NCBI GenBank assembly: GCA_017859395.1
Contig: JAFMNE010000003.1
Span: forward strand, 19,891-83,890
Direction: 5' to 3'
Origin: Ilumatobacteraceae bacterium
GTDB lineage: Bacteria; Actinomycetota; Acidimicrobiia; Acidimicrobiales; Ilumatobacteraceae
Length of the DNA: 64,000 nt
In this document: piece by piece, positions 47,446 to 64,000 of the stretch
How the letters are laid out: the number at the start of each line of letters is the position of its first letter
Numbering within the stretch: the stretch's first letter is position 1
The notes under the pieces: model-generated
The model's input: only the letters and a program-made list of their open reading frames with translations
Told to the model about the DNA's origin: nothing
The model's database searches: none
Program-made: the position numbers and the translations under genes

Positions 47446-49284
<1,839 letters not shown>

Positions 49285-49285
<1 letters not shown>

Positions 49286-49332
49286 TACGTAAGCAGGAGA
49301 AGGAATTCGCGACGGTCGGCGATGGCGTTCAT
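49285..49332 (-). CDS. leuL: Leucine leader peptide of leuA
   Basis: A 15-codon frame, MNAIADRREFLLLLT, with four consecutive Leu codons (CTT CTC CTG CTT, 49302-49291) and a TAG stop. It is followed by hairpin 1 and a terminator before leuA. This is the layout of a translational attenuator in which ribosome stalling at Leu codons reports leucyl-tRNA shortage. TAGCCT lies 8 bases before its ATG. Too short for ordinary gene callers. Confidence 0.8.
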
Positions 49333-49458: not shown

Positions 49459-50817
49459 ATGACATACAACAACGCGCGCTCGTCGGGGCGCTCCGGTGGC
49501 CGCTCGGGCGGGCGCCGCCGGTCATCAGGTGACGGCTCCGACCGCGGTCACGAACGTTCACGTCGCGACGATGATACGCCCGCGAGGACCGGCTCGCTGA
49601 CCGGCGGCAGCGGGTTGGCGCCAGTGGAACCCCCCACAGGATTTGTTGCGCTGGGCGTGCCCGAGTCGGTTGATATCGGGTTGGCCGCAGCTGGGTTCGC
49701 GCAGCCGTTCGCCATCCAGATCGAAGCGATTCCGGTAGCGATGAAGGGCCACGACGTGTGTGGCCGGGCCAAGACCGGTTCCGGGAAGACGCTGGCGTTC
49801 GGGGTGCCGATGCTGGCGCGGATGCAGGGCCAGGCCACCCCGCGGATGCCACACGGCCTCGTATTGGTTCCCACCAGAGAGCTTGCGGTGCAGGTTGCTG
49901 AGGTCCTCGACCCGGTGGCAACCACCGCGGGTTTGAGCGTGCTGCCGGTCTACGGCGGTGTGGGTCGTGAGCCACAGATTGCGGCGCTGCAGCGCGGCAC
50001 CGATCTCGTCGTCGCAACACCGTTGCGTCTGATCGATTTGATCAAGTCCGGTGAAGTCGACCTCTCTGCGGTGCAGATCGTCTGCCTCGACGAGGCCGAC
50101 CGTATGGCCGACGATGGATTCACGCCTCAGGTGGAGTGGGTGCTGCGCCATTGCACCGGGCGGAACCAGACCATGTTGTTCTCCGCAACCCTCGATGGCG
50201 ATGTCGGTCACCTGATCCGTCATTATCTCACCGATCCGGTCGAGGTGGCCATCGACGCCGCCGACGACACGGTGGGCACGATGCATCATCTCTTTCTCGC
50301 GGTGCATCACATGGATAAAGCGAGGGTGGTGGGATCCATCTCGCGTGGTTTCGCCAAAACGGTGGTGTTCTGCCAGACGAAACGACTGTGCGACAAAGTC
50401 GAGGACAAACTTCGCGAGGCGGGGGTGGATGCGGCGGCGATCCATGGGGATCTCTCCCAGGCGGCCCGTGAACGCACTCTGCAACGTTTCGCCGATGGCC
50501 GTCTCGCCGTGCTGGTCGCCACCGATGTGGCAGCCCGTGGAATCGACATCGATGACATCGGCGCCGTCATCCACTACGACCCCGCGGGTGACACGAAGGA
50601 CTATCTGCATCGCTCAGGACGGACCGCGCGCGCCGGCCGTGACGGGTGGGCAGTGACGTTCGTCGAGTACAACCAGCACACCCAGATGCGGGTCTTGCAA
50701 CGTCAATTGCGCCTGCCGCCCGGAAAGCCGGTCGAGGTGTTCTCGAACGATCCACGCCTGAGCGATCTGGCCACGTTTGAGGCCGATACCGCGACCGAAG
50801 GCGCGCGGCCGGCCTAA
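49459..50817 (+). CDS. DEAD-box ATP-dependent RNA helicase
   Basis: 452 residues: a basic Gly/Arg/Ser-rich N terminus (~60 residues), then the helicase core. Motifs are the Q-motif FAIQIEAIP, I AKTGSGKT, Ia PTRELA, II DEAD (CLDEADRM), III SAT, V ATDVAARGIDI and VI HRSGRTARAG. It remodels RNA duplexes, for example in ribosome assembly or cold adaptation. The ATG at 49459 is chosen over a frame from 49414. Confidence 0.92.
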   Translation: MTYNNARSSGRSGGRSGGRRRSSGDGSDRGHERSRRDDDTPARTGSLTGGSGLAPVEPPTGFVALGVPESVDIGLAAAGFAQPFAIQIEAIPVAMKGHDVCGRAKTGSGKTLAFGVPMLARMQGQATPRMPHGLVLVPTRELAVQVAEVLDPVATTAGLSVLPVYGGVGREPQIAALQRGTDLVVATPLRLIDLIKSGEVDLSAVQIVCLDEADRMADDGFTPQVEWVLRHCTGRNQTMLFSATLDGDVGHLIRHYLTDPVEVAIDAADDTVGTMHHLFLAVHHMDKARVVGSISRGFAKTVVFCQTKRLCDKVEDKLREAGVDAAAIHGDLSQAARERTLQRFADGRLAVLVATDVAARGIDIDDIGAVIHYDPAGDTKDYLHRSGRTARAGRDGWAVTFVEYNQHTQMRVLQRQLRLPPGKPVEVFSNDPRLSDLATFEADTATEGARPA

Positions 50818-50822
50818 GGCCC

Positions 50823-51734
50823 ATGCAAGCGATGCGCCTCGCTGGCGTATGCGCGATTGCCGCACTCGCAGGGTGCTCGCCCGGGGCAGATCCCGCACCC
50901 TCCACGACGACAACTTTGGCGCCGCCGGTGGCGATCACGGCGACCACGACCGCTCCGGCACCCGCTCCGACGCCCTTTGGACTCGCCGACAGTGTCGCGG
51001 TCCGTGTGGATGCGCCGGGTTTGGCTGCCGATGTCGAGATGACGGTGGTGATGGCATCAACGCCGTCGGCCGAGATTGACCTGTGGACGAATTACGCCAC
51101 CTGTTCGACCGTGGAGGTAAGCGGAGCGACCGCGTTGCAGATCGTGGCTGTTCGCGATGGAGCGAGCGTCGTCATCGAGGGCACGAGTGCCGGCGCCCGC
51201 GACGGTGTCACCGCTGAGGTCATCCCCGCGAATCTTGTGGTCGCGACGCGATCGGTGGAGTTCTCCAGTGCGGTTACCGTGCGCCCCCAGTCCGATGGGT
51301 CGGGCACGTTCTCGGGTCTCGTCGATGGCGATGTGGTGAGCGGCTCCTATGCCTGCGCGGACGACTCGCCTCAGCCAACCGGCCCAGTTGCTGCGTCGAT
51401 CCGCCTTGTTGGAGCAGATGGCGCGGTGCGCCGATTCGGTGTGTGGAACCTTGCATACAGATGCCCTGGCATTTCTGCCGATGTTGCACTGTCTGGAGAA
51501 CTCGGTGCGACTGGAGGTGTTGACGCCGTTGGCATCGACGCGGGGGAGGGCACCGTGATCGCCGGCCGCAGCACAGAGGTGGTGCTGGACATCACTGCGG
51601 TAGGAGTCCGGTTTGTTGCTCGTGATGCCACGATGATGGTGGCCGCTGACGGGCGCAGTGCTGTGGTTCGCGGCACCGCACTCGGCGGTGAGCGCATTGA
51701 CTTAGCCTGGAGTTGCGACGCTACGAGTGGGTGA
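50823..51734 (+). CDS. Hypothetical lipoprotein
   Basis: About 303 residues. The signal peptide ends in a lipobox (AALAGC, lipidated Cys near residue 18). A Thr/Ala/Pro-rich linker and ~250 residues of beta-rich sequence follow, with paired Cys residues that may form disulfides outside the membrane. The family is not recognised. Met1 or Met4 could be the start. It begins 5 bases after the helicase stop and ends 14 bases inside the converging leuD gene. Confidence 0.7.
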   Translation: MQAMRLAGVCAIAALAGCSPGADPAPSTTTTLAPPVAITATTTAPAPAPTPFGLADSVAVRVDAPGLAADVEMTVVMASTPSAEIDLWTNYATCSTVEVSGATALQIVAVRDGASVVIEGTSAGARDGVTAEVIPANLVVATRSVEFSSAVTVRPQSDGSGTFSGLVDGDVVSGSYACADDSPQPTGPVAASIRLVGADGAVRRFGVWNLAYRCPGISADVALSGELGATGGVDAVGIDAGEGTVIAGRSTEVVLDITAVGVRFVARDATMMVAADGRSAVVRGTALGGERIDLAWSCDATSG

Positions 51735-52311
51735 GCCAGGACGGCCGCTGTTGCTCAAACGCAGTGATCGCATCGGCGTGGCTCAAGGTGAGCGCGATGT
51801 CGTCAAGGCCCTCAAGGAATCGGTGTTGGGTGGCATCGTCCATCGGAAAGTGTGCGGTGATGCCGGCCGATGGCACCTCCACGACGCGCCGTTCCATATC
51901 GACCACGATCGGTGTTGCGGGGTCGGCGTCGATCGCAGCCCAGATGGCCTCCACGATGTCCATGTCCACCTGCGCTGGCACCAAGCCGTTCTTGGTGCAG
52001 TTATTGCGGAAGATGTCGGAGAAGCTTGGGGCGATCACCGCGTCAAATCCGGCCTGTTGAATGGCCCACACAGCGTGTTCGCGGGAGGAGCCAACACCGA
52101 ATGCCGGTCCGGCCACGATCACGCCGGCACCGCTGTAGCGCTGGTCGTTCATCACGAAGGCGGGGTCGTCGCGCCACGTGGAGAAGAGCCCCTTTTCGAA
52201 ACCGGTGCGCTCCACACGCTTGAGCCATTCCGCGGGAATGATCTGGTCGGTGTCGACGTCGCTGCGACGCAGTGGGAGACCAGTGGCTGTGATGACTCGG
52301 ACGGCTTTCAT
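51721..52311 (-). CDS. leuD: 3-isopropylmalate dehydratase small subunit
   Basis: 196 residues. The aconitase swivelling domain includes [15 protein letters not shown] and the substrate loop [16 protein letters not shown], then [10 protein letters not shown]. With LeuC it isomerises 2- to 3-isopropylmalate. The ATG overlaps the leuC stop (ATGA). Confidence 0.95.
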
Positions 52312-53726
52312 GACAGATCCTCCGGACGGGTGAAGCGGCCGGTGACGGCCGTGGCCGCGGCAATAGCGGGGGAGACGAGGTGGGTGCGGCCCCCACGGCC
52401 TTGGCGGCCCTCAAAGTTGCGGTTACTTGTGCTCGCGGCTCTCTCACCGGGTGCGAGACGGTCTGGGTTCATCGCTAGGCACATCGAGCAGCCGGGTTCG
52501 CGCCAATCGGCTCCCGCAGCACGAAACACCTCGTGTAGCCCTTCGGCCTCGGCTTCTGCTTTCACCCGGTGCGAGCCGGGCACGACCATTACCCGAGGCA
52601 CGGTCACGGTGCGGCCGCGCAGCACATCAGCGGCGGCGCGGAGGTCTTCAATTCGCGAGTTCGTGCACGACCCGATGAATACCGTGTCCACAGCGACATC
52701 GCGAATCGGGGTACCGGCTGTGAGACCCATGTAGTCGAGTGCCCGCTCGATATTGCCGCGCGATGTGGCGTCACTGGCTGCATCGGGAGACGGAATCACA
52801 TCGTCGATGCCGATGACCTGGCCGGGGTTTGTTCCCCACGTGATCTTTGGCGTGATGTCGGCGGCATCGATGAACACTTCGGTATCCCACTCGGCCCCGT
52901 CATCGCTGTGCAGGGTCGACCATTCGGCTACCGCGGCATCCCAATCTGCGCCCTGAGGGGCGTGATCACGACCGGCGAGGTACTCAAATGTGGTGGCGTC
53001 GGGGGCGACGAGGCCCGCGCGAGCACCGGCCTCGATCGACATGTTGCACACCGTCATGCGGCCTTCCATCGAGAGGCTCTCGATTGCAGAACCGCGGTAT
53101 TCGATGACATGGCCCAATCCGCCACCGGTGCCGATGACCCCGATGATGTGGAGGATCACATCTTTGGCGGTCACCCCGGAGGCGAGCTCTCCATCGACGG
53201 TGACCGACATCCACTTCGGTCGCGACTGCGGCAACGTCTGCGTGGCGAGCACATGCTCGACCTCGCTCGTGCCAATGCCGAAGGCCAGCGCGCCAAAGGC
53301 GCCATGCGTGGCCGTGTGGCTGTCACCGCACACGATGGTCATACCGGGAAGGGTGCGGCCCTGTTCGGGGCCGATGACGTGCACGATGCCCTGGTCAGCA
53401 TCACCCATTGGGTAGTGGGTGATACCGAATTCGGCTGCGTTGCGACGCAAGGTGTCGACCTGGGTTGCCGACACCGGATCGGCGATCGGTCGGTCGATAT
53501 CGGCGGTGGGCACATTGTGATCCTCGGTGGCCACCGTGAGCTCTGGCCGGCGAACGTTGCGCCCGTTCATCCGCAGCCCGTCGAAGGCCTGCGGACTGGT
53601 CACTTCGTGGACGAGATGAAGATCGATGTAGATCAGGTCGGATTCGCCTTCGGTGGACGCGACGAGATGCCGGTTCCAGATCTTCTCGGGCAAGGTGGTG
53701 GGACGGTTTGTATCCGATGGGCTCAT
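52308..53726 (-). CDS. leuC: 3-isopropylmalate dehydratase large subunit
   Basis: 472 residues. [4Fe-4S] ligands are in [13 protein letters not shown] and [10 protein letters not shown], with catalytic His/Asp in [14 protein letters not shown]. The ATG at 53726 (MSPSDTNRP) is 56 bases after the FKBP gene. It belongs to the minus-strand run greA-hydrolase-ubiB-FKBP-leuCD, but the gap allows its own promoter. No leucine leader peptide was found here, unlike leuA. Confidence 0.95.
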
Positions 53727-53782
53727 GGTTGCTCCAGTGGGTTCGTCACAGCCGACCAACCTATCGGCGGTCGGGCGCGGGG

Positions 53783-54733
53783 TCAGAGGCGTCCGACGAG
53801 TTGGGCGATGATGGTGACGGGCGTGTCGGCGGGGAGGCCCACACTGGGGGCGCCGTCGGACCCGAAGGCCAATTCGGCGGGGATTGTGAGAACCCGCACA
53901 CCGCCGACGTTCATACCTTGCAGGCCCTCAAACAATCCGGGAACGGTAAAGCCGTCGACCATCTCGATGAGCAGCGCATTGTTGTCACCCCAGGTGTCGA
54001 TCAGTTGCACCAGGTTGTCGGCGCGGGCCATCCGCAGGTGAACGATTGCGGTGTCGCCGATGGCCAGTGCAGCGCCATCTCCGACGATGGCGTCGTCGAC
54101 GACGAGTTCGGTCACCGTCTCCGCTGGAGTGAGTGCCACTTCCGGCGCATCGGCAGCCGTCGACGATCCGACCACGGCACGGACCTCAATCACGAAGGTG
54201 AGGGCATCACCTGCACGGATCACACCGCCGGGAGATTGGTCGCCGTAGGCAAGCTCGGCAGGGATATCGAGTCGGCGTTGCGTACCCGCGCTGGCGCCGA
54301 TCAGCCCCTGGTCCCAACCATCGATGACCGATCCCTGACCGACGGTGAAGCGGAAGGGCTCGCCGCGGTCGTATGAGTTGTCGAACTCGACGCCATCCTC
54401 GGACCGGATGCCGGTGTAGTCGACCCACACGGTGTCGCCCGCCTGCACCACAGGCCCAGTGCCGTCGATGATGTCGGTAATCACCAGTTCACTTGGCAGG
54501 TCCGTGGGCGGGGTGACATCGGGTCGGTCGCTTGCGCCGTCGGAGGGTTCGTCGGCGGGGGCGTCGGCCGGTTCGTCGGCAGAGCCCTCGCTAGCGGGGG
54601 TCAATTCGACGTCGGTGACGTTGGCGTCGTCCACGCTCTGGTCGTCGCCACCACAGGCGTTCAGCACCAGGGCACCCGCCGCGACGGTGGTGCTGAGCAG
54701 CAACGAGGTTCTCGGACGGCGGCGCAATGACAT
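53783..54733 (-). CDS. Lipoprotein with two FKBP-type peptidyl-prolyl isomerase domains
   Basis: 316 residues. The lipobox is LVLNAC (Cys near 27), followed by an acidic Asp/Pro/Ser linker. The first FKBP domain is complete ([48 protein letters not shown]), and the second is partial ([32 protein letters not shown]). The second lacks several active-site aromatics and may be structural. It works outside the membrane in protein folding. Confidence 0.88.
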
Positions 54734-54743
54734 GCCCGCGACG

Positions 54744-56135
54744 CTACTGGGCGTCGGCGGCGCTGCGTCGCCGGGCCAGCCACTCGGCTTCGGCGACCCC
54801 GGCAGGGGTGGAGGGTGTCGCAGCGACGAATGGCCATAGCTCTTCGGCGATGCGCCGATAGTTGCCGGTGGCTTCTAGTTCACCGAGCAGGGCGTAGAGA
54901 CCGAGGTTGATGCGCTGGATGAACACAAACGCTCGGGGCACGGTGGCGTACTGGGCGATGGGGCTCGAGCGGTCAAATGTATGACGCACGATGCTCGATG
55001 CGTAGGTCGGTGTCCACGTCATCGTGCGATCGGTCGCGACTGGTTCGTAGAAGTATGAGAAATAGGCGCCGACTTCGTCCGTGCTGACCGGAGCATCCCG
55101 CTGCAACATGCCGGCAGACTCCAGTACCGCTCGATACCCGGCGGCGTCGTGGTCCACGGCGGCCAGCCGGACCATGGTTTCGAAGGTCTCCATCTCGGTT
55201 GCCGTGAAGTGCTTTACAAGTCCGAAGTCCAAGAACGTCACGCGCCCGCCGCGGTGGAAGAGATAGTTGCCGGGATGAGGGTCGCCGTTGAACGATCGCA
55301 TGGTGTACAGGCTGCGGAAGACGAATCGGAAGATCGTCTCGGCTGCCGCGTTGCGTTCGGCCTCATCCCAGGTCATCACGTCATCCCAGGTGTGGCCGTT
55401 GACCAACTCGGAGGTGAGTACCCGTGCGGTGGAATGGCTTGTCACCACCTCGGGGACATGGATGAAGGGATGGTCCCGGTAGAAGTCGGCGAACATCGCT
55501 TGGTTCTCGGCCTCGCGTCGGTAGTCGAGTTCTTCTGTGAGGCGCTGGGTGATTTCCTCGACCAACTCGCTCGGGTCGAGACCACCGAATCCCTGCCGCA
55601 GCAGCACGCCCAACATGTCTGCATTGCGAAGGTCCGCGGCGATGGCCTCGTCGACACCGGGGTACTGCACTTTGACCGCCACCGGCCGTTCCACACCGTC
55701 GTCGCCGACGAGCACGGCTCGGTGAACCTGACCGATCGAGGCCGCCGCGATGGGTTCTGGATCCCATTGGGCGAACACCTGTGTGGGGTCATCGCCGAGT
55801 TGATCGCGGACGACGCTGGCTGCGAGATCGGGCGACATCGGCGGTGCATCGTTGCGCAGGCTGGCGAGCGCCATCCGGAACGGTTCGGGCAGGCCGTCAT
55901 CGAGATAGCTGGCCATCTGGCCGAGCTTCATCATGGCGCCCTTCATCTGGCCGAGTTCGGCCGCGACCTGCTCGGCGGTGGCGAGGCGCCGACGATCGTC
56001 GAGTTCGATGCGCCGTTCCGCCGAAGCGAATACCTTGCGGGCCGATGTGCCCGCCCACGTGCCGCCCACGCGAGCACCAAGCCGGGCAACCCGAGCGGTG
56101 CGCGCGAGACGACTGCGGGTCAACCGGTCGCTCAT
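54744..56135 (-). CDS. ABC1/UbiB-family atypical kinase
   Basis: 463 residues. KxGQ motif in MMKLGQMASYLDD, Ala-rich loop AAASIGQVHRA, VAVKVQYPGV (Lys), ELDYRREAENQ, NGDPHPGNYLF (catalytic) and LDFGLVKHF (metal). Family members are ATPases or small-molecule kinases linked to quinone/isoprenoid lipid metabolism. The ATG overlaps the hydrolase stop (ATGA). Confidence 0.9.
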   Translation of the reverse strand: MSDRLTRSRLARTARVARLGARVGGTWAGTSARKVFASAERRIELDDRRRLATAEQVAAELGQMKGAMMKLGQMASYLDDGLPEPFRMALASLRNDAPPMSPDLAASVVRDQLGDDPTQVFAQWDPEPIAAASIGQVHRAVLVGDDGVERPVAVKVQYPGVDEAIAADLRNADMLGVLLRQGFGGLDPSELVEEITQRLTEELDYRREAENQAMFADFYRDHPFIHVPEVVTSHSTARVLTSELVNGHTWDDVMTWDEAERNAAAETIFRFVFRSLYTMRSFNGDPHPGNYLFHRGGRVTFLDFGLVKHFTATEMETFETMVRLAAVDHDAAGYRAVLESAGMLQRDAPVSTDEVGAYFSYFYEPVATDRTMTWTPTYASSIVRHTFDRSSPIAQYATVPRAFVFIQRINLGLYALLGELEATGNYRRIAEELWPFVAATPSTPAGVAEAEWLARRRSAADAQ

Positions 56136-57040
56136 CGCGATGTTCCCAGTGCGTGGCGCGTGGCGCGCACCAATGTAGGAACGAAGCGGTCTGCAACCGC
56201 CACGATCGCATCGTGTTCACCGTCCACGCGGAATGCAGCGGCATGCTCGATCGCCTCGAAGAGTCGAACCTGTCGGCGCAATGGCACAACCGGGTCGCGC
56301 ATGGTGACGACGATCGACACCGGCACGTCGATCTCGCCAATCCAGTCCAGAGAGGAGAACGATCCGAGTGCCCGGCCGGCCTCGAGCACCATGCGCCAGT
56401 CGTGTCGTGCCGCCTGCGATACCGCCCATGGGCCCCAGGTCTGGGTTTTGCGTTGCAGGTACACCTGATCCGAGATCCAGTCACGTGCCTGACCGGGAGT
56501 GACCCGAGCGAGCGCTGCCAATCCTGTGAGCCCGAGGAACGACAGTCGTTCGTCGCGCGCCTCGGCAAAACTGCCGGCTGTGGCACACAGCACCATGCCG
56601 GCAACCCGGTCGGGATGGCGCTGCCACACCAACTGCGCAATCGCCCCGCCCATCGAATAGCCCACGGGCACGATGCGCTCAACGCCAAGTGCATCTGCCA
56701 CGCGGATCACATCGTCGGCGCAGTCCTCGAGGCGCACTGCACGGCGTGCCCGCAACCCCCCGGCATGGCCGCGATGGTCGTGGGCGAACAGGGCGGCCTC
56801 TTGTGCGAGGGCTCCATAGGCGGGAAAGAAGTTGATGTCAGCGCTGGCGGTCCACCCGTGGAGTAGAGCGAGAGTGGCCGGCGACGACGAGATGTCGCCG
56901 GCCACACGAGCCTCGACGGTGCCCAGGCGTCCGAGGTCGACCTGATGCAGCGGTGGTAGGTCCGGTGGTGCGCTGATCTCGACGTCGTCGCTTTGGACGG
57001 CGTCTGTTCCGTCGGGTGCGTGGGTGTCGATGGTGTTCAG
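56132..57040 (-). CDS. Alpha/beta hydrolase with non-canonical or uncertain start
   Basis: The body carries LALLHGWTAS (oxyanion), nucleophile elbow VGYSMGGA, Asp in TMRDPVVP and His in DGEHDA. It is an esterase/lactonase-like hydrolase of unknown substrate. The first standard start (GTG at 56905) leaves out VDLGRLGTVEARVAG, which looks like the first beta hairpin of the fold. The frame is open for 51 codons from there up to the greA TGA, yet contains no ATG, GTG or TTG. A CTG at 57040 with GAGG 8 bases upstream is the best candidate; an ATC start or greA readthrough are alternatives. The extent given uses the CTG. Confidence 0.65.
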   Translation of the reverse strand: MNTIDTHAPDGTDAVQSDDVEISAPPDLPPLHQVDLGRLGTVEARVAGDISSSPATLALLHGWTASADINFFPAYGALAQEAALFAHDHRGHAGGLRARRAVRLEDCADDVIRVADALGVERIVPVGYSMGGAIAQLVWQRHPDRVAGMVLCATAGSFAEARDERLSFLGLTGLAALARVTPGQARDWISDQVYLQRKTQTWGPWAVSQAARHDWRMVLEAGRALGSFSSLDWIGEIDVPVSIVVTMRDPVVPLRRQVRLFEAIEHAAAFRVDGEHDAIVAVADRFVPTLVRATRHALGTSR

Positions 57041-57058
57041 GGGGATCGCCTCGGTTGG

Positions 57059-57514
57059 TCAGAGATCATCGATTGCGATGATCTCCACTCGCAACACACC
57101 GTTGGGGCCCTCGTATTCCAGTGGTCCGAGGTCGGCCTCGGCCAATGCCTGCCCGAGGGGTGAGTGTGGGCCGACGATGGTGATGTCGTCGGGCAGGCCA
57201 GCGGCCTCTTCTTGGTTCCCCACGATGTAACGCTCGGCATCATCGGGGCTATCGCCCTCGTAGATCATCGTGATGACGCTGTGACCCTCGATGATCTCGG
57301 CGTTGTCGAGAATGTGCTCGAGTTCGCGGATGCGGCCTTCCATGTGGCCCTGTTTGTCCTTGGCCGCGTGATAGCCGGCATTTTCCTTCAGATCACCCTC
57401 GGCGCGGGCGGCCTCGATTTCCTCGGCGACCTCGATGCGGCCGCGGGTGGTGAGGTCCTCGAACTCCGCGCGCAGTCGGTCGTAGGCGGTGCGGGACAGT
57501 TGTTGAGCTGCCAT
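57059..57514 (-). CDS. greA: Transcription elongation factor GreA
   Basis: 151 residues: an N-terminal coiled-coil (RLRAEFEDLTTRGRIEVAEEIEAARAE, broken by the Asp/Glu tip DLKENAGYHAAK) and the C-terminal FKBP-like domain (SPLGQALAEADLG). It rescues backtracked RNA polymerase. The ATG at 57514 is the family start; the frame extends to 57784 across the leuB promoter and is rejected there. Confidence 0.94.
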   Translation of the reverse strand: MAAQQLSRTAYDRLRAEFEDLTTRGRIEVAEEIEAARAEGDLKENAGYHAAKDKQGHMEGRIRELEHILDNAEIIEGHSVITMIYEGDSPDDAERYIVGNQEEAAGLPDDITIVGPHSPLGQALAEADLGPLEYEGPNGVLRVEIIAIDDL

Positions 57515-57523
57515 GGCGATAAG

Positions 57524-57529
57524 ACGATA
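57524..57529 (-). promoter_or_regulatory. -10 box (TATCGT), greA
   Basis: TATCGT on the minus strand, 9 bases before the greA ATG. It lies in the 77-base divergent gap shared with leuB. Confidence 0.4.
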
Positions 57530-57578
57530 CCCGCCCCTTGTTGTGGTGTCGCCCGGTGCCCGAGGGCCGTCTCGGCCG

Positions 57579-57584
57579 TAGCCT
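57579..57584 (+). promoter_or_regulatory. -10 box (TAGCCT), leuB-ilvE
   Basis: TAGCCT, 7 bases before the leuB ATG; no SD. Confidence 0.6.
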
Positions 57585-57591
57585 GCGACGC

Positions 57592-58584
57592 ATGACACAT
57601 CGCATCGCAGTGATCGGAGGCGACGGCATCGGGCCGGAGGTGACGGCAGAGGCCCTGAAAGTGGTGCGAGCTGCCGGGGTGGACATCGACACCGCCGAGT
57701 TCGACCTTGGTGGGGCGCGGTACCTGCGCGATGGCGAGATTCTCTCCGATAGCACCCTCGATGAGTTGCGGGCCTTTGATGCAATTCTGCTGGGTGCGGT
57801 GGGCGACCCGCGTGTGGCCCCCGGGGTGATCGAGCGCGGGCTCCTATTGAAGATGCGGTTCGAACTCGATCTGTATGTGAATCAGCGTCCCTTCGTGGGA
57901 ACCGCTCCCGGCCATGACACGCCGCACGAGTTCGTCGTGATCCGTGAAAACACTGAGGGGCCCTATGTGGGTGAGGGCGGGGTGCTCCGGCGCGGCACCC
58001 CGGCCGAAGTGGCCACCCAGGGGTCGGTCAACACATGGATGGGGGTGGAGCGTTGTGTGCGGCACGCCTTCGAGCTGGCGGCCACCCGTGAGCGCCGACA
58101 GGTCACCTTGGTGCACAAGACGAACGTGCTGACCTTTGCTGGAGATCTGTGGGAGCGCGCCTTCAACAGTGTTGCGAGCGAATTCACAGATATCGATACC
58201 GCCTATAACCATGTCGACGCGGCATGCATCTATTTCGTGCAGGATCCGCACCGCTACGACGTGGTGGTCACCGACAACCTCTTCGGGGACATCCTCACCG
58301 ATCTTGGTGGGGCGGTGTCGGGCGGTATCGGACTGGCCTCGTCGGCCAACTTGAACCCGGCCCGGACCGGCCCGTCAATGTTCGAACCGGTGCACGGGTC
58401 AGCGCCCGATATCGCCGGTACCGGTACGGCGAACCCCACAGCAGCCATCCTCTCGGCGGCTCTCATGTTGGACTTCCTTGGTGAAGGGGCCGCTGCGGAT
58501 CGGATCAGGACGGCGTGCAATGATGCTCCCGGTGGTGGCACCAGCGCGATTGGCGATGCCATCTCTGCCCGCGTGTCGGCCTGA
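57592..58584 (+). CDS. leuB: 3-isopropylmalate dehydrogenase
   Basis: 330 residues, of the shorter actinobacterial type. [23 protein letters not shown], the metal Asp region [13 protein letters not shown] and [12 protein letters not shown] are present. Oxidative decarboxylation step of leucine synthesis. The ATG at 57592 is fixed by the -10 box; the longer frame from 57538 is not coding. Confidence 0.95.
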
Positions 58585-58628
58585 CCGCTCTTTATTTCGT
58601 CAACACCTCACACAGCGAGAACCCCACG

Positions 58629-59543
58629 ATGCCCATCACACCCACCCCGAAAATCTGGATGAACGGCGAACTTGTCGACTGGGAAAAGGCCCAGGTGCAC
58701 GTGCTGACGCACACCTTGCACTACGGCACCGGCGTGTTCGAGGGCATCAGGGCCTACGCCACCGCCGATGGGCCTGCGGTGTTCCGTCTCACCGAGCACA
58801 TCGAACGTCTGCACCGTTCGGCGCACATTCTCGGAATGGAGTTGCCGTACACGGTCGACGAGCTGATCGCTGCCACCAAGGAGACGGTTGCATCCACCGG
58901 TTTGGATTCGTGCTATATCCGTCCGATCGCGTACCTCGGATACGGCGAGATGGGTCTCAACACCATCCCATGCAGCGTCGATGTCGCCATTGCCTGTTGG
59001 CCATGGGGTGCCTACCTCGGCGACGATGCCGTGGAGGTGGGTGTGCGGCTCAAGACGTCGTCGTGGACACGACACGAACACAACACGATGCCGCCAGCAG
59101 CCAAGACCACGGGCAACTACGTGAACTCCTCACTGGCCAAGGTGGAGGCGTTGAAGGCCGGATATGACGAGGCGGTGATGCTCGCACCGAACGGTCTTGT
59201 GGCCGAATGTTCGGGCGAGAACATCTTCGTGTCGCGCAACGGCGTGCTGCTGACGCCTCCGTTGTCAGCAGGTGCCCTCGAGGGCATCACCCAGAACACG
59301 GTCATGACGATCGCGCGCGACCTCGGGTACGAAACGCGGTGCGACAACCTCGCACGGAGCGATCTGTACATCGCCGATGAAGCCTTCGTGGTGGGCACGG
59401 CAGCCGAGGTGTCGTCGGTGAACTCGGTGGACGACCGGTCGATCCCATGCCCTGGGCCGGCCACCCGGGCCATTGCCGAGACATATGCCGCAGCGGTCAC
59501 CGCAGCCGATCCGCGCTACCGGCACTGGTGCGAACACGTCTGA
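58629..59543 (+). CDS. ilvE: Branched-chain amino acid aminotransferase
   Basis: 304 residues, a fold-type IV PLP enzyme. LHYGTGVFEGIRAYA, the PLP-Lys in PAAKTTGNYVNS, EGITQNTVM and GTAAEVSSVNSVDDR are present. It performs the last step of Leu, Ile and Val synthesis. It follows leuB after 44 bases, with only a GAGA-like SD, and probably lies on the same transcript. Confidence 0.93.
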   Translation: MPITPTPKIWMNGELVDWEKAQVHVLTHTLHYGTGVFEGIRAYATADGPAVFRLTEHIERLHRSAHILGMELPYTVDELIAATKETVASTGLDSCYIRPIAYLGYGEMGLNTIPCSVDVAIACWPWGAYLGDDAVEVGVRLKTSSWTRHEHNTMPPAAKTTGNYVNSSLAKVEALKAGYDEAVMLAPNGLVAECSGENIFVSRNGVLLTPPLSAGALEGITQNTVMTIARDLGYETRCDNLARSDLYIADEAFVVGTAAEVSSVNSVDDRSIPCPGPATRAIAETYAAAVTAADPRYRHWCEHV

Positions 59544-59611
59544 TCTGCCGAATCGCGACCTGAGGTGCGGTGGCGCCACGCGTGACGGTCAGCGGTGGCG
59601 ATACCGGCTCT

Positions 59612-60553
59612 CTATGAGTTCAGCGTGGCTTCGAAGCGTGCCATGAATCGTTCATGGTCGGCTCGGATGACCACAGTGGCATTCGCCTCGCCACCGGTGA
59701 ACCCCAGCACATCCATCACGACCATGCCGCGGGTGAGTTCCGACTCGGTCTCGCAGCGCAGGTACATCTGGCGGGTCTCGAGGGCGATGGCGCCGTCGAT
59801 CGCGTAGGCCATGGTGATCGGGTCGGGAAGGTCGAACCCCGCCAACTTGGTCTCGGTGGCACAGAACTGGGCGACCGTGGCCTGAATATCGATGCAGAAC
59901 TCGGCGAGCGGTGTGCCGATCGCGCGGAGGCGTTCGGCCTGTGTCGGAACAACGACAGCGTCCCGCCGGCTGATATCCCATCCCACGAACTCGAGCGGGA
60001 GTCCCGATGCGAGGACCGCGGCCACGGCATGCGGGTCAACCCACATGTTGAATTCGGCGACCGGGGTGACATTGCCGATGTGGTCAGCCACCGCTCCCAT
60101 GATCACCACCCGTGCCAGGCGGTCGACGAGGTCGGGATCGCGGCGCAGAGCCAGGGCGAGGTTGGTGAGCGGTCCCAAAGTGACGAGCTCCAGCCGGCCC
60201 GCATACTCCTGTGAGGCGGCGATGAGGGCATCGACACCGTGGCCAACATCGGCCGTCCGCCCGGTGAGGTCCAGACCAATGTCGCCCATTCCGTCGGCCC
60301 CGTGCACATTCTGGGCGGTGCCGAGCGGCAGGACCAGCGGCCGATCGGCGCCGACGTATACGGGAACATCGGTGCGACCACAGACCTCGCGGGTGTAGAG
60401 GGCGTTTTGCACAGCCATGTCCAGCGGCACGTTGCCCGCGACAACCGACACACCAACGACGTCGACCTCGCTCGCGGCAAAAGCGATTGCTAGGGCCACC
60501 GCATCGTCGCTGGCGGTGTCGGTATCGATGAACATCGGTCGTCGGTCGCTCAT
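59612..60553 (-). CDS. Nucleoside hydrolase (second copy)
   Basis: 313 residues of the IunH family. The Asp cluster is DTDTASDDAVAL, with NMWVDPHAVAAV later. It differs from the copy at 2630-3565 by having Thr-Ala-Ser where that one has Pro-Gly-His in the metal loop, so the two are probably not recent duplicates. The ATG at 60553 follows TAGCGT by 7 bases. Confidence 0.87.
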   Translation of the reverse strand: MSDRRPMFIDTDTASDDAVALAIAFAASEVDVVGVSVVAGNVPLDMAVQNALYTREVCGRTDVPVYVGADRPLVLPLGTAQNVHGADGMGDIGLDLTGRTADVGHGVDALIAASQEYAGRLELVTLGPLTNLALALRRDPDLVDRLARVVIMGAVADHIGNVTPVAEFNMWVDPHAVAAVLASGLPLEFVGWDISRRDAVVVPTQAERLRAIGTPLAEFCIDIQATVAQFCATETKLAGFDLPDPITMAYAIDGAIALETRQMYLRCETESELTRGMVVMDVLGFTGGEANATVVIRADHERFMARFEATLNS

Positions 60554-60560
60554 CGTGGCG

Positions 60561-60566
60561 ACGCTA
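60561..60566 (-). promoter_or_regulatory. -10 box (TAGCGT), nucleoside hydrolase
   Basis: TAGCGT on the minus strand, 7 bases before the ATG at 60553. Confidence 0.6.
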
Positions 60567-60649
60567 GCCGTCGTCGCCGTCGGTGGTCATGGTCCACTCC
60601 AGCGGGTCCGAGTTGACGTCAGCGCAACGATCGGGTTGACTTACACGCG

Positions 60650-60685
60650 ATGACGCATTTCGCCACCATCATCATTATTCCGTAG
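60650..60685 (+). CDS. Isoleucine leader peptide of cimA
   Basis: An 11-codon frame, MTHFATIIIIP, with four consecutive Ile codons (ATC ATC ATT ATT, 60668-60679) and a TAG stop, 104 bases before cimA. It is followed by a 10-bp hairpin and a T-tailed terminator. This fits an attenuator that senses isoleucyl-tRNA and controls the first enzyme of citramalate-derived isoleucine synthesis. A TTGACG (60613-60618) is a possible -35; the -10 box is unclear. Confidence 0.8.
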   Translation: MTHFATIIIIP

Positions 60686-60707
60686 AGCACACGGCTTCCG
60701 TGTGCTC
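60685..60707 (+). promoter_or_regulatory. cimA leader hairpin 1
   Basis: Perfect 10-bp stem, GAGCACACGG (60685-60694) / CCGTGTGCTC (60698-60707), with a 3-base loop. It starts on the last base of the leader TAG. Confidence 0.75.
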
Positions 60708-60712
60708 GTTCT

Positions 60713-60741
60713 GCCGCCCCTCGGGCGGCATTTCGCTTTTT
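60713..60741 (+). terminator. cimA leader terminator (attenuator)
   Basis: GCCGCCC (60713-60719), loop CTC, GGGCGGC (60723-60729), then ATTTCGCTTTTT. A textbook factor-independent terminator placed 48 bases before the cimA ATG. Confidence 0.85.
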
Positions 60742-60788
60742 CAGACCGATACTTCATATCCGACACCACGCTGACAAGGACACCGCAG

Positions 60789-62390
60789 ATGAGCACCACC
60801 GATAACGCCACCGGCACCACTGAGCGCATCGAGATCTTCGACACCACGCTGCGCGACGGTCTGCAGGTCGAAGGCGTCAGCGCATCCGTTGAGGACAAAC
60901 TGCGTATTGCTGAACAACTCGACTACCTCGGCGTGCACTTCATCGAAGGTGGTTGGCCGGGAGCGAACCCGAAAGACATCGAGTTCTTCCGGCGTGCGGC
61001 GAGCGAACTGCAGTTGTCCACGAGCACCTTTGTGGCATTCGGCTCAACCCGCCGCCCCCGGGGCCGAGTGGACGAGGACCCCACGCTCCAGCACCTTCTC
61101 GATGCCAACACCTCAGCCGTGTGCATTGTGGCGAAGAGTTGGGATTACCACGTGACCGAGGCATTGCAGACCACCCTTGATGAGGGCGCTGCGATGATTG
61201 CTGATTCCGTGGAGTACCTCGTTGCCAACGATCGGCGGGTGCTCGTCGACATGGAGCATTTCTTCGACGGATACAAGCGGAACCCCGAGTTCGCTCTGCG
61301 TGCCCTTGAGGCAGCGATCGTGAAGGGTGCCACCCATGTAGTTCTGTGTGACACCAACGGTGGGTCGCTTCCCCATGAGGTATCGGCGATCGTCGCTGAT
61401 GTGCACGCACACGTCGGCCGTGACGTCACGATCGGTATTCACTGCCACGACGACACCGGTTGCGCGGTGGCAAACTCGATGGCGGCGGTGGCCGCTGGCG
61501 CCCGTCATGTGCAAGGAACGCTGAATGGGCTCGGCGAACGCACCGGTAACACGAACCTCACCACGATCATTCCAAACCTCCAGGTCAAGCAGGCCTATTC
61601 GGTGCTCGACGAGGGCCGGTTGGAACGTCTGACGGTTGTGTCGCATCGCATCGCCGAGACGTTGAATCGCGCGGTGAATCCGCAGGCACCGTACGTCGGG
61701 TCATCAGCGTTTGCTCACAAAGCTGGCCTGCACGTCAGCGCGATTGTGCGCGCCCGTGACGCCTATGAACACATCGACCCCGAAGTGGTCGGTAACGGCA
61801 CCCGCTTTGTGGTGTCCGAGATGGCGGGCCGAGCCACCATTCAGATCAAGGCAGAGGCTCTGGGTCTTGAACTCGACGGGCCCGCGATCAACCAAGTGAT
61901 CGACGACTTGAAGCGCCTCGAACACGAGGGGTATCAGTTCGAGGCGGCGGATGCGTCGCTCGAGTTGCTGATGCGTCGCGCCACCGGCTGGGAACAGGAT
62001 TTCTTCCGGCTGGAATCGATGCGGGTGATCACCGATGAGGTGCACGGCGCCGACATCGGCCAGTTCACCACCGAGGCAACGGTCAAGGTGTGGGTAGGCA
62101 ATGAGCGTCACGTGCACACCGCCGAGGGCAACGGCCCGGTGAACGCGATCGACCTCGCGTTGCGCAACTGCGTACGAGCCGTATACCCCCGTCTGGACAG
62201 CATGCATCTCACCGACTTCAAGGTGCGGATCCTCGATGGCGGCGAGGCGACCGGTGCGGTGACCAGAGTGTTGCTGACCGCGACGGACGGTGAGCGCGAT
62301 TGGACCACCATCGGTGTGAGCGCCAATGTGATCGAGGCCTCGTGGCGTGCTCTGTCGGAGAGCATCGTGTACGGGCTTCTTCTGGGGTAG
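60789..62390 (+). CDS. cimA: (R)-citramalate synthase
   Basis: 533 residues. The DRE-TIM barrel begins IFDTTLRDGLQVEGVS (catalytic Arg-Asp), with metal His in GIHCHDDTGCAVAN and GLGERTGNTN. The C-terminal LeuA-type regulatory domain is ~390-533. Spacing and the GLQVEGVS/GGWPGANP segments fit the CimA clade rather than LeuA. It condenses pyruvate and acetyl-CoA to citramalate for threonine-independent isoleucine synthesis. The ATG at 60789 (MSTTDN); a GTG frame from 60702 runs through the terminator and is rejected. Confidence 0.92.
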   Translation: MSTTDNATGTTERIEIFDTTLRDGLQVEGVSASVEDKLRIAEQLDYLGVHFIEGGWPGANPKDIEFFRRAASELQLSTSTFVAFGSTRRPRGRVDEDPTLQHLLDANTSAVCIVAKSWDYHVTEALQTTLDEGAAMIADSVEYLVANDRRVLVDMEHFFDGYKRNPEFALRALEAAIVKGATHVVLCDTNGGSLPHEVSAIVADVHAHVGRDVTIGIHCHDDTGCAVANSMAAVAAGARHVQGTLNGLGERTGNTNLTTIIPNLQVKQAYSVLDEGRLERLTVVSHRIAETLNRAVNPQAPYVGSSAFAHKAGLHVSAIVRARDAYEHIDPEVVGNGTRFVVSEMAGRATIQIKAEALGLELDGPAINQVIDDLKRLEHEGYQFEAADASLELLMRRATGWEQDFFRLESMRVITDEVHGADIGQFTTEATVKVWVGNERHVHTAEGNGPVNAIDLALRNCVRAVYPRLDSMHLTDFKVRILDGGEATGAVTRVLLTATDGERDWTTIGVSANVIEASWRALSESIVYGLLLG

Positions 62391-62400
62391 AACATCGGAT

Positions 62401-62940
62401 ATGGCTGCCCCCAGATCTGCCCCCGCCGGTGCGCGTGCATCGCGTTACTACTCCTCACCCGATGTAGTCCCCGATCCGTGGCGGGGTGACCGCCCCGCCG
62501 AGATCGATGGACTGCAGCCATCCGGGGCGCGCCTCGGATCGCAAGGTCCCGATCAGGGCTTTGCATTGCGCATTGCGCGTCTGCGTGCCGATGATGTGTG
62601 CCCGACGCCAGGAGAGGATGTGCGTGACCTCATTGCGGGATGTCTTGGCATTGCCCTCCGACGCGCCTCGATGTTCTCGCGGGCTCCGGTCGTGCACGAC
62701 ATCGACATCGCATTCACGATCTGGGGTCTCTACGACGACGCCCCGCCCAGCGAGCTCGTCGAACTCCGTCGGACGATGTTTGCCGGTGTGGCACACACCG
62801 GCCATCACTACGACCAGGCGCGCCGCATCGTGGACATGGTGCCTGAATCAACACTTCGGGCGACACCGGCGCAGATCACGTCGATCTATCCGGCACAGTG
62901 GCGCGCCCTGACCGGTGTGGCAGCTGCCGCGGCGCACTGA
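62401..62940 (+). CDS. Hypothetical protein downstream of cimA
   Basis: 179 residues with a polar N terminus rich in aromatic and Asp residues (RYYSSPDVVPDPWRGDRP, then GLQPSGARLGSQGPDQGF) and a helical C-terminal part. Dense Arg/Asp pairs, no TM, no signal. No family is recognised. It starts 10 bases after cimA, so it should share the Ile-controlled transcript. Confidence 0.7.
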   Translation: MAAPRSAPAGARASRYYSSPDVVPDPWRGDRPAEIDGLQPSGARLGSQGPDQGFALRIARLRADDVCPTPGEDVRDLIAGCLGIALRRASMFSRAPVVHDIDIAFTIWGLYDDAPPSELVELRRTMFAGVAHTGHHYDQARRIVDMVPESTLRATPAQITSIYPAQWRALTGVAAAAAH

Positions 62941-62971
62941 GCGCACCTATTCGTTCAGTTCGGGGCTGATC

Positions 62972-62977
62972 TAGGAT
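62972..62977 (+). promoter_or_regulatory. -10 box (TAGGAT), peroxiredoxin
   Basis: TAGGAT, 7 bases before the GTG at 62985; no SD. Confidence 0.6.
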
Positions 62978-62984
62978 CACGGCC

Positions 62985-63449
62985 GTGAGCACCCCCAACG
63001 TCGGAGACCCTGCCCCAGCCATCGTTCTTGAGGATCAGACCGGCACGATCATCGATGTTGTCGCCGCGCAGACGGGGCGACGGGTGTTGGTGTTCTTCTA
63101 TCCCAAAGCGAACACCCCGGGATGCACCACCCAAGCGTGCGGATTGCGCGATATCGCCGATCAGGTGGGGGACACGACGATCATCGGGATCAGCCCCGAT
63201 ACGCCGGCAAAGCAGGCATCGTTCGACACGAAGTTCTCCCTTGGGTTCACGCTGCTCGCCGACGTGGATCACGCCGTTGCCGAGGCCTACGGCGTATGGG
63301 TGGAGAAGTCGATGTATGGCCGCAAGTACATGGGCGTGCAACGCTCTGCGTTTCTGATCGATGCCGCCGGGAACATCTCGCACGCCTGGCCGAAGATCAC
63401 GCCAAAAGACACCCCGGTGCAACTGTTGCGTGCCCTCGGCGACACCTGA
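62985..63449 (+). CDS. bcp: BCP/PrxQ-type peroxiredoxin
   Basis: 154 residues of the thioredoxin fold. FFYPKANTPGCTTQACGLRD holds the peroxidatic Cys (46 or 47) and the resolving Cys five residues later, the atypical 2-Cys pattern of the PrxQ/BCP group. It reduces hydroperoxides in the cytosol with thioredoxin. Confidence 0.93.
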   Translation: MSTPNVGDPAPAIVLEDQTGTIIDVVAAQTGRRVLVFFYPKANTPGCTTQACGLRDIADQVGDTTIIGISPDTPAKQASFDTKFSLGFTLLADVDHAVAEAYGVWVEKSMYGRKYMGVQRSAFLIDAAGNISHAWPKITPKDTPVQLLRALGDT

Positions 63450-63458
63450 GCGGTGCCG

Positions 63459-63821
63459 TCAGTCGAGCGCGTGCGCGCGGAGGTCGTCGAGGTTCACATG
63501 CTCAAGAGCTGAGAGATGCGTGGAGGCCAACACCACCGGGCAGGCATGACCGGCCTCAAAGGCCTGCTGCCATCGCGCTGCGCAGACGCACCACTGATCG
63601 CCGTCGCGTAACCCTGCGAAACCGTATTGGGGCATGGGGGTGGACAAGTCGTTGCCCGTACGCCGTGAGAACTCCAAGAAGTCGTCGGTGACGCGGCAGC
63701 ACACCACATGCATGCCCGGATCGTCACCGCGATTCTCACAGCATCCGGTGCGGTAGTAGCCGGTCAGGGGATCCATCGAACACGGTTGCAGTTCCTCGCC
63801 AAGGACGTTGAGCTGGGTCAT
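63459..63821 (-). CDS. DUF2237 family protein
   Basis: 120 residues. NVLGEELQPCSMDPLTGYYR, the CCENRGDDPGMHVVCC region, GNDLSTPMPQYGFAGL and GDQWCVCAARW are the DUF2237 landmarks. Conserved Cys residues suggest metal or redox chemistry, but the role is unknown. Convergent with the peroxiredoxin gene, 9 bases apart. Confidence 0.88.
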   Translation of the reverse strand: MTQLNVLGEELQPCSMDPLTGYYRTGCCENRGDDPGMHVVCCRVTDDFLEFSRRTGNDLSTPMPQYGFAGLRDGDQWCVCAARWQQAFEAGHACPVVLASTHLSALEHVNLDDLRAHALD

Positions 63822-63879
63822 GGCGACATTGCATCACGCCGCGGGCACGGCGGTGGCACCGAGCCCTGACCCGGCGTGT

Positions 63880-64000
63880 TCAGCCCAGCGTGACGCCGAA
63901 GATCTGGCCGATACCGAAGGTCACAGCGCAGGCACCGAGCACGATGGCGACCTGGCGCGCAGCTGCGCCCGCGATCGACCGCTCGGCATAGCGCCCAACC
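63880..64000 (-). CDS. VIT1/CCC1-like membrane transporter, C-terminal end only (partial)
   Basis: A minus-strand frame enters from the window edge and stops at 63880. The last 39 residues read GRYAERSIAGAAARQVAIVL then GACAVTFGIGQIFGVTLG. A basic-polar segment followed by a final TM helix with VTFGIGxxFGV-LG matches the C terminus of VIT1/CCC1 family iron/manganese transporters. Only one helix is visible. It would be the gene upstream of DUF2237 on the same strand. Confidence 0.5.
   Translation of the reverse strand, partial: VGRYAERSIAGAAARQVAIVLGACAVTFGIGQIFGVTLG

Follow-up and report, generated by a model that had tools for sequence, protein, structure and literature searches.

We identified, in a 64,000-nucleotide stretch of Ilumatobacteraceae DNA (the window), an element upstream of the citramalate synthase gene cimA that is very probably a leader-peptide transcription attenuator, through which the supply of charged tRNA-Ile would set the transcription of cimA. 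The leader ORF with its codon run, the fixed spacing, the hairpins, the promoter-like motif and the association with cimA are all seen in the sequence and in its comparison with relatives. The original prediction of an isoleucine attenuator at this site is supported by the occurrence of the element in 57 of 94 distinct cimA upstream regions, by compensatory changes in its first hairpin, and by the finding that 31 of the 37 leaderless cimA genes have ilvE directly upstream.

The leader element upstream of cimA

All parts of the element lie on the forward strand of the window. Sequence reading and comparison with relatives identify a leader ORF for the peptide MTHFATIIIIP, followed by TAG, at positions 60650-60685 (codons ATG ACG CAT TTC GCC ACC ATC ATC ATT ATT CCG TAG), in which the isoleucine control codons ATC ATC ATT ATT occupy 60668-60679. 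The first hairpin (HP1, 60685-60707, identified by folding and comparison) has the G of the TAG as its first base, begins 5 nt past the last isoleucine codon, and consists of 10 perfect pairs between the arms 60685-60694 and 60698-60707. The second hairpin (HP2, 60712-60730, identified by folding, terminator scan and comparison) starts 4 nt past HP1 and is the stem of a predicted intrinsic terminator, with 8 GC-rich pairs between the arms 60712-60719 and 60723-60730. It is followed by a T-rich terminator tail, TTTCGCTTTTT, at 60731-60741, recognised from the sequence and in the terminator scan. The parts that had been predicted from the window alone (an ORF with four isoleucine codons, the TAG, a 10-bp hairpin from the G of the TAG and a T-tailed terminator) were exact. 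The same prediction placed cimA closely 3' of the terminator, and this too is the case: cimA (60789-62390, forward strand; TIGR00977, 677.8 bits against a cut-off of 450), which encodes citramalate synthase and is the presumed regulated gene, starts 47 nt past the T-rich tail.

HP1 and HP2 together form both the minimum-energy and the centroid structure of 60650-60742, at -34.6 kcal/mol, a fold with a z of -5.0 that 0 of 200 shuffles equalled. HP2 was listed first among the eight terminator-like sites of a scan of 50000-64000, the overall yield of which is not above chance (8 sites against 6.0 expected, sd 2.1). The arrangement of four isoleucine codons, three further nucleotides and TAG was found a single time in the whole 64 kb and never in 100 shuffles. 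No Rfam family was matched at its gathering score in the window, and there was therefore no match to a T-box. The gene between ilvE and cimA is nucleoside hydrolase-like (59612-60553, reverse strand) and divergent from cimA, and because of this opposite orientation the forward-strand terminator at 60712 cannot serve it.

Upstream of the leader, we noted a promoter-like motif (60613-60641, forward strand), in which TTGACG (60613-60618) and TTGACT (60636-60641) are separated by 17 nt, and which ends 8 nt before the leader ATG. This short distance suggests a leaderless transcript, and the leader is probably read from leaderless mRNA; passages of PMC8079986 report leaderless mRNA for leader peptides of Streptomyces lividans. 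The motif was recognised in the sequence and by a targeted scan, and was not listed in a general promoter scan of the window. The targeted scan, which was designed after the motif had been seen and took shuffles of the same upstream DNA as its control, found promoter-like geometry scoring at least 8 at 31 of the 57 leader-bearing loci, where 50 shuffles averaged 1.3 such loci and never exceeded 4, and gave zero candidates at 17 of the 57.

Conservation and distribution of the leaders

The closest named relatives of the window cimA are Acidimicrobiia assemblies, many of them labelled Ilumatobacteraceae. We collected 110 cimA loci, of which five (L086, L087, L088, L089 and L094) were dropped because the anchor was unusable, leaving 105 with usable upstream DNA and 94 distinct upstream regions. 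A leader was scored where at least two of the four codons that precede the last sense codon were for isoleucine and a stem started from the last base of the stop codon. The full element, of isoleucine-rich run, one codon, TAG, HP1 and HP2, was found in 57 of the 94 regions, in loci that are related to each other, such that the counts are not independent events. The comparison of orthologous upstream regions, which the original prediction had named as a possible refutation, did not go against it, with the isoleucine-rich run and both hairpins recurring and compensatory changes in HP1. The run contains four isoleucines in 43 leaders, three in 12 and two in 2, and the stop codon is TAG in all 57, in a scan that permitted TAA and TGA. 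A possible reason for the invariant TAG is that HP1 takes its first base from this codon, namely the G. The cultured relative Desertimonas flava has a leader ending AIIIIT at its cimA locus (L070, with an upstream region identical to that of L026). The peptides are variable outside the isoleucine run, while the run, the TAG and the spacing are kept.

Structural counts were made on 55 of these leaders, omitting L008, with a shifted hairpin, and L043, with a mis-scored terminator. The tail past HP2 contains a mean of 7.0 T within 12 nt in the 55. In an alignment of 53 distinct stretches (alignment A1), 10 rows of which are off by one column, so that pairing is undercounted there, standard pairs fill 93.0% of the cells, a share that drops to 84.7% when partners are shuffled and to 28-56% when they are slid. 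For both helices pooled, 67 cells carry changes in both partners, compared to 19.8 in the shuffles and 5-25 in the slid controls. Double changes were found at seven pairs, six of them in HP1. When the 55 leaders were counted by stem position, with the 3' partner picked for the longest stem, HP1 pair 2 was CG in 25, AT in 16, GC in 9 and TA in 3, and 22 different 8-bp HP1 stems were recovered.

Selection was also evident on codon choice. The last isoleucine codon is ATT in 54 of 55 leaders, against 12.0 expected from the 22% of ATT among isoleucine codons of the same cimA genes. This points to the last codon of the run and not to the first, and in that respect counts against the steric step proposed below. 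Similarly, the last leucine codon of the leuA leaders described below is CTT in 27 of 30. Wobble decoding of such U-ending codons might be slow.

The gene order around cimA differs between loci with and without a leader. We found ilvE directly upstream of cimA, ending at most 118 nt before the cimA anchor, in 31 of the 37 leaderless loci and in none of the 57 that bear a leader, indicating that the leader accompanies cimA genes that are not directly behind ilvE. Six leaderless loci (L030, L078, L080, L081, L083 and L108) are without ilvE directly upstream, indicating that the leader is dispensable in some lineages. As a separate observation, L030, L078, L080, L081 and L083 have neither a leader nor an adjacent ilvE, an apparent loss of the leader.

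We additionally identified parallel leaders for leucine and valine. A twin leader precedes leuA on the reverse strand of the window (49222-49332, identified by sequence comparison), and comprises MNAIADRREFLLLLT-TAG (49332-49285), its own HP1 (49285-49258), a terminator hairpin (49257-49234) and a T-rich tail. It was matched weakly (49302-49224, E 0.52) by model R1, which was built from loci that it recovers again in the window and family-genome searches. All 30 of the leuA loci examined have at least two leucine codons, one codon and a stop, which is TAG in 26 and TAA in 4. At leuA loci L137, L138, L139 and L141, we noted terminator arms of the form CTCC(T)...GGAGG, which resemble anti-Shine-Dalgarno and Shine-Dalgarno sequences. 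In the genome of the window, ilvB (L194, G000:C53) is preceded by a leader ending LVVVVVR-TAG, with the valine codons GTA GTA GTA GTA GTC, and then by a hairpin and a terminator. Leaders of this kind were scored in 17 of 24 ilvB loci, and were recognised by eye in four of the remaining seven (L184, L185, L187 and L190). The ilvB runs often mix valine, leucine and isoleucine, and the valine-only run of the window's genome is therefore not general.

Across genomes, model R1 matched 32 of 37 in the family, its own training loci included; in one of these searches, that of G018, the only match sits just before ilvB. Matches were found in 161 of 298 genomes of an order-wide Acidimicrobiales sample, and, under strict filters, in 21 of 396 genomes of a phylum sample, all 21 from the same class. 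The order and phylum searches used stricter filters, and most of their matches lie outside the training family or the training loci. Among 30 loci retrieved from the order-wide sample, the next gene downstream is cimA in 13 and leuB in 14, and the 14 loci that begin with leuB have cimA or ilvE further downstream; the other 3 are L164, L165 and L170, described below. LeuB serves the citramalate route too, and an operon that begins with leuB therefore fits an isoleucine signal. Several leaders of leuB operons have interrupted runs (ISIP, IVIIR, IIISIS). The genes that follow the leaders of L164, L165 and L170, which end in TLVVIT or TLVLIT, were unmatched to the six window proteins tried; we note that these three leaders resemble those of ilvB. 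The proposal of an isoleucine leader dedicated to cimA thus holds in part, for the leader stands on cimA in the 57 regions, and the same leader stands before leuB in other Acidimicrobiales families.

Finally, we considered the entry to isoleucine biosynthesis. Threonine deaminase was without a match in all 16 genomes of the genus (TIGR01127 at E 1e-30; PF00585), which are draft genomes and can miss genes, and on this basis CimA looks like the entry point to isoleucine in the genus. TIGR01127 at E 1e-30 gave matches in 40 of 61 relatives, 14 of them above its cut-off. The leader is also present in relatives with a deaminase-like gene, such as G033, and is thus independent of the absence of the deaminase.

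Ribosome position and the state of the hairpins

In the mechanism that we infer, the leader would be translated from a leaderless transcript that starts at the leader start codon, with the ribosome trailing RNA polymerase. Under an ample isoleucine supply, the ribosome would reach the TAG and cover the 5' arm of HP1, and HP2 would terminate transcription ahead of cimA; under scarcity, the ribosome would be held at the isoleucine codons, and transcription would proceed into cimA. HP1, intact with a ribosome on the first isoleucine codons and erased by a ribosome at the stop codon, would be the antiterminator. HP1 shares no base pairs with HP2 but sits within 0-5 nt of it, and would hinder the closing of the HP2 base in the polymerase exit channel. 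We propose this steric step tentatively, from the adjacency of the hairpins and their geometry, as the simplest reading that gives the regulation the right sign.

The geometry is as follows. A ribosome covering 9 nt past the A site masks 0 nt of HP1 when on the first or second isoleucine codon (Ile1, Ile2), 4 nt on the fourth (Ile4) and 10 nt on the stop. The spacer between HP1 and HP2 is 0-5 nt in 55 of 55 cimA leaders, with an HP1 loop of 2-19 nt, and that between HP1 and the terminator ranges from -2 to 5 nt in leuA leaders and from 2 to 5 nt in those of ilvB. In trp-type leaders, the antiterminator begins, relative to the stop codon, where HP1 sits.

We calculated antiterminator pairing by removing the RNA covered by the ribosome and scoring the pairing of the HP2 5' arm before the 3' arm exists. 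Six Escherichia coli leaders (trp, thr, leu, his, phe and ilv) gave peaks of 0.50-0.83 at their control codons and 0-0.21 at the stop; hisL was the weakest of these controls, with 0.17-0.56 along its run, and leuL gave 0.50. With 9 nt covered past the A site, the cimA leaders exceeding 0.5 numbered 0 of 55 at Ile1, 0 at Ile2, 2 at Ile3, 8 at Ile4 and 28 at the stop, where the mean was 0.48. The values thus rise toward the stop, reversing the order seen in E. coli. At four control codons, none of 26 leuA leaders and none of 15 ilvB leaders exceeded 0.5, in a test that took 26 of the 30 leuA and 15 of the 24 ilvB loci (TAG stop and length limits). Duplexes between HP1 and HP2 were, in each of the four arm combinations, weaker than those of shuffled stems (z +2.8 to +4.1). 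A conserved base-paired antiterminator was not found in these leaders, and the alternative antiterminator pairing that the original prediction had suggested looking for did not appear in any conserved form, with 0 of 55 at Ile1 and Ile2. Equilibrium folding has HP2 forming at any ribosome position (mean P 0.91-0.94, falling at single loci to 0.01 and 0.26), a result of no diagnostic value, as five of the six leaders from E. coli likewise keep their terminator at 0.92 or above. A search by eye for pairing of the isoleucine codons or ORF with the downstream arms gave one apparent match, at L001, that does not hold in the closely related L003. An outward extension of HP1 into the spacer, on the lines of the boundary-trinucleotide model for C. 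glutamicum, was looked at by eye in a few sequences and set aside.

It is possible, if doubtful, that HP1 acts in the opposite sense, as an anti-antiterminator of the trp type. A ribosome stalled on the last isoleucine codon or codons would then open HP1, the freed 3' arm of which would pair with the 5' arm of HP2 ahead of HP2's completion; under plenty, fast passage and release at the TAG would let HP1 re-form and HP2 terminate. Larger footprints are consistent with this, as a ribosome that covers 11-13 nt would open HP1 from Ile4 just as from the stop codon, such that a stall at the last isoleucine codon may free the 3' arm. Pairing at Ile4 then passes one half in 34 of 55 leaders (11 nt, mean 0.49) or 28 of 55 (13 nt, mean 0.48), near the 0.50 of leuL, and the last isoleucine codon, with its ATT in 54 of 55, is the most constrained of the run. 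Against this, the same pairing is seen with a stop-codon ribosome (28 of 55, mean 0.48), and so does not, alone, separate starvation from plenty; with a 9-nt footprint, a ribosome on Ile4 brings it about in just 8 of 55; the duplex of the HP1 3' arm with the HP2 5' arm is itself weaker than shuffled stems (z +2.8); and the pairing is absent at every control codon in leuA (0 of 26) and ilvB (0 of 15).

We consider it unlikely that HP1 is instead a brake or polymerase-pause hairpin, which would synchronise ribosome and polymerase and leave the decision at HP2 to their coupling. The position of HP1, at a fixed spacing of 5 nt past the last isoleucine codon, means that the ribosome encounters it while decoding the last isoleucine codons, which is a matter of geometry and not a test, and such a role leaves the constant 0-5 nt spacing between HP1 and HP2 unexplained. 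It is very improbable that the terminator is constitutive and the small ORF beside it accidental or without a regulatory role, given that the isoleucine-rich run, the TAG and the spacing are kept while the remaining peptide varies, that HP1 covaries, and that a cognate leucine run is present in 30 of 30 leuA loci examined.

Returning to HP1 as a steric antiterminator, the leaders might, though we hold this with some doubt, represent an attenuator class of the Acidimicrobiia, in which the switch would involve no exchange of base pairs. A hairpin rooted in the stop codon and abutting the terminator would instead be a removable steric antiterminator, erased by the ribosome that terminates there, with isoleucine, leucine and valine modules on cimA (or the leuB operon), leuA and ilvB, respectively.

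Relation to known attenuators

At the level of sequence, the element has an ORF of pathway codons (in 57 of 94 cimA regions) and an intrinsic terminator between this ORF and the gene. An exclusive base-paired antiterminator was not found, with 0 of 55 at Ile1 and Ile2, none in the leuA and ilvB leaders, and a dependence on footprint at Ile4 (8, 34 and 28 of 55 at 9, 11 and 13 nt). The element is attenuator-like, yet a mutually exclusive antiterminator was not found at the codons that should show it. It shares with the trp, thr, leu, his, phe and ilv attenuators of E. coli a short ORF of control codons and an intrinsic terminator before the gene, but differs from them in the lack of pairing ahead of the terminator at Ile1 and Ile2 (0 of 55), and in a first hairpin that does not start until the stop codon.

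According to passages of Seliverstov 2005 (PMC1262725), Actinobacteria have known leader-peptide attenuators on trp, ilvB and leuS, among others. As described in parts of PMC1262725 and PMC8079986, the ilvB, leuA and leuS leaders of Streptomyces and Mycobacterium resemble the window leader in having runs of branched-chain codons, in being often leaderless and in often lacking a clear antiterminator; unlike in the window leader, the ilvB runs are said in a passage of PMC1262725 to overlap the terminator. The text of PMC1262725 contains 0 occurrences of cimA or citramalate. In Corynebacterium, the ilvB-II motif is described, in the relevant part of Narunsky 2023 (PMC10272879), as a mixed isoleucine, leucine and valine leader upstream of ilvB, with an antiterminator overlapping the terminator. 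Compared with the definition published there, the window leader falls outside this motif, as it stands on cimA, its run is of isoleucine only, and HP1 and HP2 share no paired bases in the 55 cimA leaders. In the model for C. glutamicum ilvBNC outlined in a section of Ryabchenko 2025 (PMC11857589), neighbouring antiterminator and terminator hairpins exchange only a boundary trinucleotide. On that outline, the Corynebacterium ilvBNC attenuator is like ours, an actinobacterial leader of branched-chain codons with a terminator beside an antiterminator hairpin, which in our case is proposed. Isoleucine T-box riboswitches also sense the charging of tRNA-Ile, but, as stated in passages of PMC2494555, bind the tRNA directly, unlike the window leader, and the window is without an Rfam match. 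Within the open-licence PMC literature, we found no report of an attenuator on cimA or in Acidimicrobiia.

The layout of these leaders is conserved and a base-paired antiterminator is not, which makes testable how leader-peptide control works in actinobacteria when other attenuator elements are missing, a situation touched on in part of PMC1262725. A single genome with parallel leaders would assign isoleucine, leucine and valine to separate branch enzymes. For the isoleucine pathway that runs through citramalate, this would mean an attenuator of its own, in a group of mostly uncultured actinobacteria.
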